Assembly: GCF_015244675.1 (NCBI RefSeq)
Contig: NZ_JABCQO010000002.1
Location: 310,001 to 374,000 of the forward strand
From: Gluconobacter cerevisiae
Lineage (GTDB): Bacteria > Pseudomonadota > Alphaproteobacteria > Acetobacterales > Acetobacteraceae
Direction of reading: 5' to 3'
DNA length: 64,000 nucleotides
Position numbers and translations under genes: made by a program. This document shows positions 52,303-55,315 of this stretch, in pieces. Each line of letters begins with the position of its first letter. The stretch's first letter is position 1. Below the pieces are notes generated by a model. It ran no database searches and was not told the DNA's origin. It saw only the letters and a list, made by a program, of their open reading frames with translations.

Positions 52303-52983
52303 ATGTCCTCAACCCTTTCCCCGCGTTCGGCACTGGACGCGGAAGCCGTCAAAACGGCTTATCGTCGTTGGGCCCGTGTTTATGATACTGTTTTCGGCGG
52401 TATTTCGGGTTACGGGCGTAAAAGAGCAGTGGCTGCGGTCAATGCTCTGCCAGGAGAGAGGGTTCTGGAAGTCGGTGTTGGAACAGGGCTGGCCCTGCCT
52501 GCCTATTCCCAGAGCAAACGCATTACGGGAATCGATCTCTCCGAAGACATGCTGGAGCGTGCGCGGATGCGGGTGCTTCAGGAGCATCTGACGAATGTGG
52601 ACGATCTGCTGGAAATGGACGCGGAAGCCACGACGTTTGAAGATGACAGCTTCGATATTGCGGTAGCGATGTTTGTGGCATCGGTCGTCCCGCACCCCGA
52701 CCGGCTGCTGGCTGAACTCAAGCGCGTCGTGAAGCCGGGCGGGCATATCCTGTTCGTGAATCATTTTCTGGCGACTGGCGGCGTGCGTCTGTCGGTAGAG
52801 CGTGGCATGGCCCGGGCGTCCCGCTCCCTGGGCTGGCATCCGGATTTCGCAATTGAGTCGCTTTTGCCGCCGGAAGACCTGCGTCGTGCGACGCTGATGC
52901 CGGTTCCGCCTGCGGGACTGTTTACACTCGTGACATTGCCGCAATGCGAGAGTAAAAGCGACGCAGCAGCCCTGGTCGCCTGA
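52303..52983 (+). CDS. pmtA: phosphatidylethanolamine N-methyltransferase (PmtA type)
   Basis: SAM-dependent methyltransferase converting phosphatidylethanolamine to phosphatidylcholine, a major lipid of acetic acid bacteria. 226 residues. SAM motif I VLEVGVGTGLALPAYS, motif II/III region FDIAVAMFVASVVPHPDRLL, and LKRVVKPGGHILFVNHFL. N-terminal YRRWARVYDTVFGGI is characteristic of the Rhodobacter-type family. ATG 52303 is chosen; the frame is open upstream from 52138. The oxidase remnant follows within about 90 bp. Confidence 0.88.
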   Translation: MSSTLSPRSALDAEAVKTAYRRWARVYDTVFGGISGYGRKRAVAAVNALPGERVLEVGVGTGLALPAYSQSKRITGIDLSEDMLERARMRVLQEHLTNVDDLLEMDAEATTFEDDSFDIAVAMFVASVVPHPDRLLAELKRVVKPGGHILFVNHFLATGGVRLSVERGMARASRSLGWHPDFAIESLLPPEDLRRATLMPVPPAGLFTLVTLPQCESKSDAAALVA

Positions 52984-53070: not shown

Positions 53071-54249
53071 ATGACTTATCAGGCCGTCGATACTGCTCCG
53101 GATACTGCCTCGGCCCGTTCCAGCTGCCGAGTCGGGACATCCTTCATTCTGCTGGCCCTGTTTGCGGGCCTGCTGGGTGGGTCGCTGGCCCTGCCAATTC
53201 TCCAGACACATCCCACAAGTGGACAGGCCTTCTGCCACGGTATTCTCATGACGTTCTTCGTCATGTGTCCTGCCGCGCTGGGCGGGTTCGGGCAGTGGCT
53301 ATTGCCGGCAGCGCTCGGGACTGACCGGACGGTACTTCGCGGACTGACGCTGGCGGGGTTCGGTTTTCTTTCGGCAGGTGTTGTCCTTCTGCCCATCCTG
53401 CCGTTCGTCGCGATGCTCCTCTGGTCTGCTGGTATTCTGGCCGTAGCGACTGACGTGATTACCACCTGTCTTGAAGGACGGACCTGCCGTTTCAGGGACA
53501 TGGCACCTTTGGCATGGTCGCTGCTCGCAACGGCATGCAGTGTCGTTCTGGTGGCGCCGGTTCTGGCGGCTGTCGTGACGCGCGGCATGATGGACGGACT
53601 GACCACCGACGCCCTCATCGCAACGCTCCATCTGCCTGAAATGGCACTGATGCTGACCCCAGCACTCGGGCTGGTCGCGTCGGCCCTTCTGTCACGTTCT
53701 GCCCGTGGCGGGGCATCCTGGACGGTTGCGCCTTATGTGTTTGGCGTGATGGGGATTGGTGGCCCGCTGTTCTGGATGGACGGACTGTATGGCTCTTTGG
53801 CATCCGAGGTAGGGGCCAGTCTTATGTTGGTGACGCAGATTGTGCCGTCGGTGGTGCTGATCGGGGCACTGTGCCGGGATGTGTGGCAGCAGAAGCGCGA
53901 TCTGGATGGAACTGCGCTGTGGGCGATTGGCAGCATTCTTCTGTTTGCGGCGGGATGGCTGTCTGATGCTCTGCCGGGCCATTCAGGCGACCATACGGCC
54001 GTGGCATTTGGTGGGATCATGGCGCTGTGTGGCGGGTTCTATGCCTGGGTTGAGAGGCTTCTCCCCGGTCGTATTCCTTCTTTGCTGAGTCGGGTCCATG
54101 CGGGTCTCATGCTGGTGGGAGCGTTCTGTTCGATCGTGCCGGTCGTGATGATCTATGGTGAGATTCTGATGGGTGTCAGTCTGCTGGTCTTTGGGCTGGT
54201 GGGACTGTTCCTGTTGAGGGAGACCGGGCGTGCCCGGGTCTCGGCATGA
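53071..54249 (+). CDS. ctaD: degenerate cytochrome c oxidase subunit I homologue (CtaD-like)
   Basis: 392 residues, about 11-12 membrane helices, open throughout. Aligned by eye to alphaproteobacterial CtaD: FCHGILMTFFVMCPAALGGFG matches helix II, including the heme a ligand (His56); VITTCLEGRTCRFRDMAPLAWS matches the helix V region. The CuB site is lost: GHPEVY reads HLPEMA (187-192), so the ligand His becomes Leu188; the HH pair reads Asp237-Gly238. In helix X the heme a3 His becomes Gly306, while the heme a His is kept (His308). It cannot reduce oxygen by the normal mechanism. Start ATG 53071; GTG 53005 is possible. Overlaps ctaB by 4 bp. Confidence 0.78.
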   Translation: MTYQAVDTAPDTASARSSCRVGTSFILLALFAGLLGGSLALPILQTHPTSGQAFCHGILMTFFVMCPAALGGFGQWLLPAALGTDRTVLRGLTLAGFGFLSAGVVLLPILPFVAMLLWSAGILAVATDVITTCLEGRTCRFRDMAPLAWSLLATACSVVLVAPVLAAVVTRGMMDGLTTDALIATLHLPEMALMLTPALGLVASALLSRSARGGASWTVAPYVFGVMGIGGPLFWMDGLYGSLASEVGASLMLVTQIVPSVVLIGALCRDVWQQKRDLDGTALWAIGSILLFAAGWLSDALPGHSGDHTAVAFGGIMALCGGFYAWVERLLPGRIPSLLSRVHAGLMLVGAFCSIVPVVMIYGEILMGVSLLVFGLVGLFLLRETGRARVSA

Positions 54250-55196
54250 GTGATACGACAACACCTCTGGCCCCTTCGGGGGTTTTTTCCGTTCCGGGGA
54301 AGGATAATGATCCGTCCCTGCGTGAATGGCTGGCGCTGCTCAAGCCGCGGGTGATTTCGCTGGTGGTGTTTACCGGTGCTGCGGGCATGGCCGTGGCGCC
54401 GCACTGGCCGTCCATTCCCATCGGATTGATTACCATCCTGTGCATCTGCATCGGGGCAGGGGCCGCAGGGGCCATCAACATGTGGTATGACCGCGACATC
54501 GACGCGATCATGAAGCGGACGGTGGTACGGCCTATTCCTGACGGGCGTATGCCGGAACAGGCGGCGCTGGTTTATGGCGTCGTCCTGTCGGTATTGTCTG
54601 TGGTTGTGCTCTGGCTGGCGACGAATGCACTGGCAGCCGGAATTCTGGCGTTCTCGATTTTCTTCTACAGCGTCATCTACACGATGTGGCTCAAGCGTAG
54701 CACGCCGCAGAACATCGTAATCGGCGGTGCTGCGGGCGCCTTTCCGCCAATGATCGGCTGGGCTGCGAGCATGAATTCGATGGCAGTTCTGCCTGTGGCG
54801 ATGTTTGCGATCGTGTTCCTGTGGACGCCACCACACTTCTGGTCGCTGTCGCTGTATGCCTGCAAGGATTACGACAAGGCTGGCATTCCGATGCTGCCGG
54901 TCGTGAAGGGTGCGCGTCATACACGATGGCAGATCCTGATCTATACGTTCATTCTTACGGCGGTATCACTGGTGCCGACGTTCGTTCATGAAGTCGGGCT
55001 GACCTATACAATCGTGACCAGTCTGCTGGATCTGGGCTTCATTCTTTGCGCGTTCCGGGTGCTGATGGACAAGCAGGATGCAGAGGGTGTGAGCCTGACA
55101 AAAGACAAGCCAGCGCGCATCGCATTCCGTTACTCGCTGGCCTATTTGTTTTTGCTGTTCTGCGGACTTCTTGTTGACCGGGTTCTAATCGGATGA
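54246..55196 (+). CDS. ctaB: protoheme IX farnesyltransferase (heme O synthase)
   Basis: UbiA-family prenyltransferase adding farnesyl to heme B, giving heme O for terminal oxidases. First Asp-rich motif NMWYDRDIDAIMKRT; second motif region ACKDYDKAGIPMLPVVKG. Also LKPRVISLVVFTGAAGM near the N-terminus. 316 residues, about nine helices. It likely supplies a ubiquinol oxidase encoded elsewhere, because its own oxidase gene (upstream) is degenerate. Overlaps ctaD by 4 bp and the CoxF-like gene by 4 bp. Confidence 0.95.
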   Translation: MSDTTTPLAPSGVFSVPGKDNDPSLREWLALLKPRVISLVVFTGAAGMAVAPHWPSIPIGLITILCICIGAGAAGAINMWYDRDIDAIMKRTVVRPIPDGRMPEQAALVYGVVLSVLSVVVLWLATNALAAGILAFSIFFYSVIYTMWLKRSTPQNIVIGGAAGAFPPMIGWAASMNSMAVLPVAMFAIVFLWTPPHFWSLSLYACKDYDKAGIPMLPVVKGARHTRWQILIYTFILTAVSLVPTFVHEVGLTYTIVTSLLDLGFILCAFRVLMDKQDAEGVSLTKDKPARIAFRYSLAYLFLLFCGLLVDRVLIG

Positions 55197-55315
55197 CCAT
55201 GACGACGGATGTTGATCTTGCCCGCAAGAGACGGTTGAGCCGGATTACGGGAATTGTCAGCGGTGTGGTGCTGCTGGCCGTAATTTTTTATGTGATTACG
55301 CTGACGCGGCTTTAA
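55193..55315 (+). CDS. 40-residue CoxF-like membrane peptide
   Basis: Short gene starting ATG at 55193 in the ATGA overlap with the ctaB stop. It encodes MTMTTDVDLARKRRLSRITG followed by one hydrophobic helix (VVLLAVIFYVITLTRL). A basic stretch then one helix ending in TxxRL is how the small CoxF protein between ctaB and ctaG looks in Alphaproteobacteria. No ctaG or ctaC/E follows; a terminator does. Resemblance rests on size, position and pattern only. Confidence 0.65.
   Translation: MTMTTDVDLARKRRLSRITGIVSGVVLLAVIFYVITLTRL

Follow-up and report, generated by a model that had tools for sequence, protein, structure and literature searches.

A ctaD-like relic beside ctaB in Gluconobacter cerevisiae probably persists as a membrane protein with one low-spin heme site

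Introduction

Within the stretch of 64,000 nucleotides of Gluconobacter cerevisiae DNA analysed here (the window), a gene apparently derived from that for cytochrome c oxidase subunit I, hereafter ctaD', lies directly upstream of ctaB. Alignments, codon models and comparisons among relatives make it highly probable that selection maintains the ctaD' product as a membrane protein bearing a low-spin heme site, and that it is not an oxidase. The pattern suggests a new job tied to heme rather than simple decay of an oxidase subunit.

Related genes have already been noticed in Acetobacter. A 2014 study by Matsutani reportedly described a partial ctaBD cluster in A. pasteurianus, the function of its ctaD being absent through accumulated mutations, and the A. 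pasteurianus CtaB is said to have made heme O in E. coli. In excerpts of further publications, acetic acid bacteria are described as being without an aa3 oxidase (PMC4007555), the gene of A. pasteurianus 386B as an incomplete cytochrome c oxidase that is probably inactive (PMC3751514), ctaB and ctaD as being conserved among three genomes of A. pasteurianus (PMC5158111), and ctaB together with ctaA as still functional remnants of the COX cluster (PMC6915089). Bombella intestini is described, again in an excerpt, as having bc1 and cytochrome c genes, with cytochrome c oxidase genes absent (PMC5112900). The excerpted text of PMC10715153 portrays an Acetobacter COX1-like protein as 'lacking all' metal-binding residues and as stabilising CtaB.

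Results

The ctaD' gene and its locus

The features of the locus are collected in Table 1. As the first-pass annotation of the window had stated, the ctaD' frame is fully open, encoding 392 aa with 0 internal stops, and its stop codon overlaps the start of ctaB as ATGA at 54246-54249. The protein passed the gathering cut-off of PF00115 (COX1) with 52.2 bits against 34.8, and this was the sole Pfam family matched, a signalling domain being absent. The model for true CtaD (NCBIfam TIGR02891) gave 35.3 bits, far under its cut-off of 670.75. When 51 members of the ctaD' family were searched, 41 matched PF00115 (E<=0.001). The closest named locus was that of G. kondonii, with 96% identity over the protein. 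An AlphaFold model, built on an alignment with 13 Gluconobacter homologues (14 similar sequences), contained 12 helices, with a mean pLDDT of 43.6 and a pTM of 0.39, values too weak for heme geometry or for searching by fold. The 40-aa ORF that follows ctaB had no Pfam family above cut-off, and counterparts downstream of ctaB were found at L052, L119 and L120 only, in a search with this short query.

Table 1. Coordinates of the ctaD' locus in the window, with residues at functional positions of CtaD
Feature	Position	Strand	Remarks
Methyltransferase gene, upstream of ctaD'	52303..52983	+	Methyltransf_11, 81 bits
ctaD-like gene (ctaD')	53071..54249	+	392 aa; cytochrome c oxidase subunit I relic, one low-spin heme site putatively kept
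His56 codon CAC	53236..53238	+	On Paracoccus His94, helix II, low-spin heme ligand position; His in 103/103
Trp149 codon	53515..53517	+	Trp in 103/103 relatives and 5/5 canonical CtaD
Leu188	53632..53634	+	Replaces CuB ligand His276; His in 0/103
Trp235 codon	53773..53775	+	Trp in 103/103; Trp of the VWAHH motif in 5/5 canonical CtaD
Asp237-Gly238	53779..53784	+	Replace CuB ligands His325-His326; His in 30/103 and 9/103
Gly306	53986..53988	+	Replaces heme a3 ligand His411; His in 2/103
His308 codon CAT	53992..53994	+	On Paracoccus His413, helix X, second low-spin heme ligand position; His in 103/103
His343	54097..54099	+	His in 86/103, Gln in 17/103
ctaB, heme O synthase	54246..55196	+	NF003349 327.8 bits vs cut-off 246; start overlaps ctaD' stop by 4 nt
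40-aa ORF	55193..55315	+	Overlaps ctaB stop as ATGA; hydrophobic by eye

Ligand positions of canonical CtaD

In the Paracoccus enzyme, we take His94 and His413 to be the ligands of heme a, His276, His325 and His326 those of CuB, and His411 that of heme a3. A single-sequence alignment to Rhodobacter CtaD (3om3) matched His56 with the ligand in helix II, and His308 with the second histidine of the HFH motif. A profile of 51 family members, aligned with the solved structures 7jro, 3om3, 3ehb and 1ar1, gave the same register, and it matched near the whole length of Paracoccus subunit I (1ar1) with an E of 7.9e-79. The proposal that His56 and His308 occupy the two heme a ligand positions, made by eye in the first-pass annotation, thus agrees with both alignments, neither of which moved the two histidines off these positions. 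Both alignments equally confirmed that all three CuB positions are changed (Leu188, Asp237, Gly238) and that the heme a3 ligand has become Gly306. The position of the cross-link tyrosine is Ala192 in ctaD' and is Tyr in none of the 103 relatives described below.

Conservation among 103 relatives

A search of the bacterial family found a match in 270 of 299 genomes at E<=0.001, many of the weaker ones lying in longer open frames, as expected of canonical CtaD. Near full-length matches were sampled, which gave 67 genomes with the relic form, two of them with identical proteins; the matches left out of the sample were partial, mostly in longer frames, or fragments, and canonical ones were taken as controls. 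With 19 more genomes of the genus, in which 26 of 26 genomes had a match, the sample came to 85 distinct relics, which were aligned with five canonical CtaD. The ctaD' of G009, cut by a contig end, was excluded from the alignment. A later search covered 120 genomes of the order and found a match at E<=1e-60 in 117 of them. It added 18 relic-length frames from genomes new to the sample, giving a total of 103 distinct relatives, which fall under 20 genus codes within the one bacterial family.

Pairwise identity among the first 85 relics was low, with a median of 27.5% and a minimum of 15%, and exactly four of the 392 columns were invariant, namely His56, Trp149, Trp235 and His308. All 18 later members keep the same four residues, and with them exactly four columns remain invariant in 103 of 103; the nearest earlier relatives of these members are 39% to 96% identical, so that the test is strong for some and weak for others. 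The residues are unchanged although their codons vary among the 85 relics (CAT 43 and CAC 42 at His56; CAT 71 and CAC 14 at His308). In a simulation under LG+G4 on the inferred family tree (51 taxa, length 42.7), four of 20,000 columns came out invariant and none of them was His, a figure to be read as a guide and not as proof, the rate variation of real columns exceeding that of the model. There are 234 positions of the ctaD' protein that are invariant in the five canonical CtaD, and the chance that four random survivors would include both heme a ligands is p ~0.0002, a rough value that ignores differences between residues.

The other functional positions fared differently. Lys is found at the K-channel position (Lys354) in none of the 103 relatives, while Glu190 (Paracoccus Glu278) is kept as Glu in 56 of them. 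The paired arginines of CtaD, which sit near the heme propionates, are gapped in 83 of the 85 relics, and the heme pocket of ctaD' is therefore not canonical; the His of the Mg site is gapped in 76 of 85. In each of the first 85 relics, at most one of the four lost-ligand positions is still His. Loss of the four ligands, which the first-pass annotation had read from the single protein, held as a general feature of the 103 relatives but not as an identical one, His being kept at the four positions in 0, 30, 9 and 2 of them; at the level of sequence, the loss of the oxygen-reducing centre is general in the family and its pattern differs between branches. L182 (G214), among the later 18, has His at both 237 and 306, unlike its nearest relatives in the set. 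Separately, L121 (G071) is a relic in which the catalytic ligands are lost, yet its open frame of 526 aa is near-canonical, and it is possibly an intermediate.

Selection on ctaD'

Codon models gave an omega for ctaD' of 0.067 in 14 close Gluconobacter, 0.083 in 21 members of the genus, 0.106 in seven members of g33 and 0.094 in six members of g85. For ctaB in the same genomes and in the same order, the values were 0.021, 0.033, 0.022 and 0.035, those of ctaD' being 2.5 to 5 times as high. The closest set counts most, since synonymous sites in the wider sets are probably saturated; in this set of 14, holding omega at 1 with kappa at 2.5 lowered lnL from -5994.4 to -6772.8. No internal stop occurred in any of the matches listed from the family, genus and order searches. 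Frameshifted homologues with neutral dN/dS, which the first-pass annotation had set against its own reading, were thus not seen, omega lying at 0.067-0.106 in all four sets and frames being open among the matches listed. Although it evolves faster than ctaB, ctaD' is clearly constrained.

Origin and neighbourhood of the relic

In a tree with six canonical CtaD and six quinol-oxidase sequences, the 51 relics formed one side of a branch with a support of 100/100; all sequences came from the same bacterial family, so that the branch separates the relics from CtaD of this family without placing a root within CtaD. L140, a quinol-oxidase sequence represented by no more than a 50-residue stretch, had fallen inside the ctaD' family in a quick tree and was dropped for that reason.

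Canonical loci of the family show the gene orders methyltransferase-ctaC-ctaD-ctaB-ctaE (L103) and methyltransferase-ctaC-ctaD-ctaB-ctaG-ctaE (L122), and at L104 ctaC-ctaD-ctaB-ctaG-ctaE stand in order with the methyltransferase some 2 kb further off. ctaC was found at five of the five canonical loci and ctaE at three of the five, some of these loci being cut short. The methyltransferase was matched at all 56 relic loci examined, while none of the 56 had ctaC, ctaG or ctaE beside the relic at E<=1e-4 in 1.4 to 6 kb of flank, in a search of imperfect sensitivity that also missed ctaG at canonical L103. CtaG_Cox11 is the protein that inserts CuB, and a search for its family found it in none of 23 relic genomes, including that of G. 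cerevisiae, and in three of three canonical genomes, among them G086, which carries L103. In all 103 relatives, ctaB immediately follows the relic on the same strand, its start lying no more than 30 nt from the relic stop, and 75 of 103 share the 4-nt overlap. This linkage is in part inherited, because ctaD and ctaB adjoin in canonical operons too. An operon of the order methyltransferase-ctaC-ctaD-ctaB-ctaG-ctaE would have eroded to methyltransferase-ctaD'-ctaB.

CtaA, CtaB and quinol oxidase in relic genomes

The only other PF00115 match in the G. cerevisiae genome was a frame of 667 aa (482.6 bits), which passes the CyoB model (1117.6 bits against 1020.35) and is a bo3 quinol oxidase subunit. 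CtaB had one match in this genome, so that the ctaB beside ctaD' encodes the only heme O synthase found there. Heme A synthase (CtaA) was found in nine of 23 relic genomes and not in the other 14, G. cerevisiae among them. Because CtaA was not found in its own genome, heme a was set aside as a ligand of this protein, and the heme would be b or o.

As a side observation, residue 44 of the protein, on Paracoccus Arg54, is Arg or Gln in seven of nine members from CtaA-positive genomes and in none of 14 from CtaA-negative ones; it is gapped in five of these 14, the loop is poorly aligned and both traits follow the tree, so that the pattern carries little weight. In CtaD, Arg54 is in contact with the formyl group of heme a, and the pattern at residue 44 hints that the heme type in relics may follow CtaA.

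In five genomes (G029, G116, G066, G070 and G210), an oxidase match, CtaB and ctaD' are absent together, with CtaB matches only at the level of paralogues (23-31% identity) or none; the family profile, which also finds bo3 oxidases with E near 1e-40, had no match there except for a weak, broken one in G116 (E 0.0016) with two stops. G001 has two quinol-oxidase-like genes but no ctaD', and its methyltransferase runs directly into ctaB (L153 5637-7353). ctaD' is dispensable in at least this lineage, and because G001 has ctaB without ctaD', a strict need of ctaD' for CtaB function was rejected as universal. In G031, where no oxidase match was found, ctaB stands at the edge of a contig, which leaves its upstream side out of view. 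Across the genomes sampled, the relic accompanies CtaB, not heme A, and is no strict requirement.

Discussion

The first-pass annotation had proposed that, instead of decaying at random, the gene was retained for a heme-binding membrane protein, be it an electron carrier, a heme sensor or a partner of CtaB; the alignments, the open frames and the omega of 0.067-0.106 support such a protein as the best reading at the level of sequence. We infer that ctaD' binds heme. The gene would descend from ctaD. Its oxygen-reducing centre is gone, as are the K-channel lysine and the loop that holds the paired arginines, and selection would keep it as a membrane protein that has one bis-histidine low-spin heme site and, judging by homology, 12 helices. 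The heme in it would be o or b, and the protein would take up or hold heme O from its neighbour CtaB and help to supply the bo3 quinol oxidase. We judge this last role the likeliest of those considered, at somewhat short of an even chance; it is drawn from the constant pairing of ctaD' with the sole heme O synthase found and from the joint absence of the two genes. A more specific form is held a little more tentatively, namely that ctaD' may be a dedicated heme-O handling protein, which after the loss of catalysis kept only the low-spin pocket, receives heme O from CtaB by way of the two-gene operon, and loads or buffers bo3. The loss in G001, the inherited ctaD/ctaB neighbourhood and the CtaB activity reported for A. 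pasteurianus weigh against a strict need for ctaD'. Handover partners of CtaB are already a known idea, as the excerpted text of PMC9145763 reports a complex of CtaA with CtaB by which heme O may be handed over.

Among the other explanations, a membrane electron carrier appears rather unlikely, although it would make use of the one low-spin site retained: its single heme would pass electrons between ubiquinol or cytochrome c and some further partner and might in this way compensate for the missing cytochrome c oxidase, and excerpts of three papers point to bc1 and cytochrome c genes that are kept where no efficient route of cytochrome c re-oxidation is known (PMC10715153, PMC3751514, PMC5112900). 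Such a carrier is difficult to reconcile with the relic loci, none of the 56 having ctaC (subunit II) beside the relic and no partner gene being recognised there, and, as a matter of general knowledge, a lone heme at one face of the membrane does not reach across it. The suggestion made for Acetobacter in the excerpts of PMC10715153, that the protein is a structural partner stabilising CtaB without binding heme, would account for the constant linkage to ctaB, the absence of both genes together and the low omega, but it offers no reason why both heme a ligands should be among only four invariant columns at a median identity of 27.5%, and we regard it as improbable. A sensor of heme, O2 or NO, reporting on heme or on respiration, seems slightly more doubtful again; a heme site without catalysis and an operon shared with a heme enzyme would suit it, whereas six-coordinate bis-His hemes are generally known to bind gases poorly and the 392 aa contain COX1 as their only Pfam family, with no signalling domain.

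The two remaining possibilities are both very remote. A decaying pseudogene, which is how the A. pasteurianus ctaD was reportedly judged, would fit the loss of the catalytic ligands, the cross-link tyrosine and the K-channel lysine, the absence of the gene from some lineages and an omega that exceeds the ctaB value by a factor of 2.5 to 5. It is at odds with an omega of 0.07-0.11, with the absence of stops among the matches listed and with the invariant heme pair, and neutral decay is refuted by an omega well below 1 together with the fall of lnL when omega is set to 1. That the active site was rebuilt, making the protein an oxidase or a reductase, is equally hard to credit: the His at one CuB position (Paracoccus His325) in 30 of 103 relatives and the two of four lost positions kept by L182 speak for it, but His at His276, the cross-link Tyr and Lys at Lys354 are each found in 0 of 103, ctaC is beside 0 of 56 loci, CtaG was found in 0 of 23 genomes and the invariant columns contain no second ligand set. 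It was rejected on the missing catalytic positions, ctaC and CtaG.

We therefore return to a low-spin heme protein that has been kept by selection. The first-pass annotation had thought the pattern unreported, which stands in part: a retained low-spin heme ligand pair with matching selection was not found in the open-licence literature, but the protein and a role in stabilising CtaB are already in print, in the excerpted text of PMC10715153, where it is described as being without any metal-binding residues. An Acetobacter copy is likely among the 103 relatives, and going by the aligned residues, 'lacking all' metal-binding residues fits no copy among them. The findings challenge the printed view of the protein as a non-functional leftover without metal ligands, and they provide a case, well covered by sampling, of an oxidase subunit pared down to what is probably a single-heme protein. 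How oxidase subunit I receives heme O or heme A from the synthase is poorly understood, and the ctaD' clade, whose members would have kept just the low-spin site and stand next to the heme O synthase gene in every copy examined, would be a natural test case.

With CtaD of the alphaproteobacterial aa3 oxidase (Paracoccus 1ar1, Rhodobacter 3om3), ctaD' shares a match over nearly the whole length, the heme a ligands and a place in the locus after the methyltransferase and before ctaB. In contrast to CtaD, it has lost the CuB and heme a3 ligands, the cross-link tyrosine, the K-channel lysine, the Mg-site loop and the paired arginines, it fails the TIGR02891 cut-off, and it does not have ctaC, ctaG and ctaE beside it. 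CyoB, subunit I of the bo3 quinol oxidase, belongs to the same superfamily but forms a separate clade (100/100) and is part of a complete oxidase encoded at another locus. The Acetobacter partial ctaBD cluster, or 'deranged COX1-like protein', is presumably the same gene beside ctaB, going by the published descriptions. The Acetobacter protein is reportedly described as non-functional in the 2014 study and, in the excerpts of PMC10715153, as having no metal-binding residues, whereas the ctaD' family keeps two of the six ligand positions in 103 of 103 relatives.
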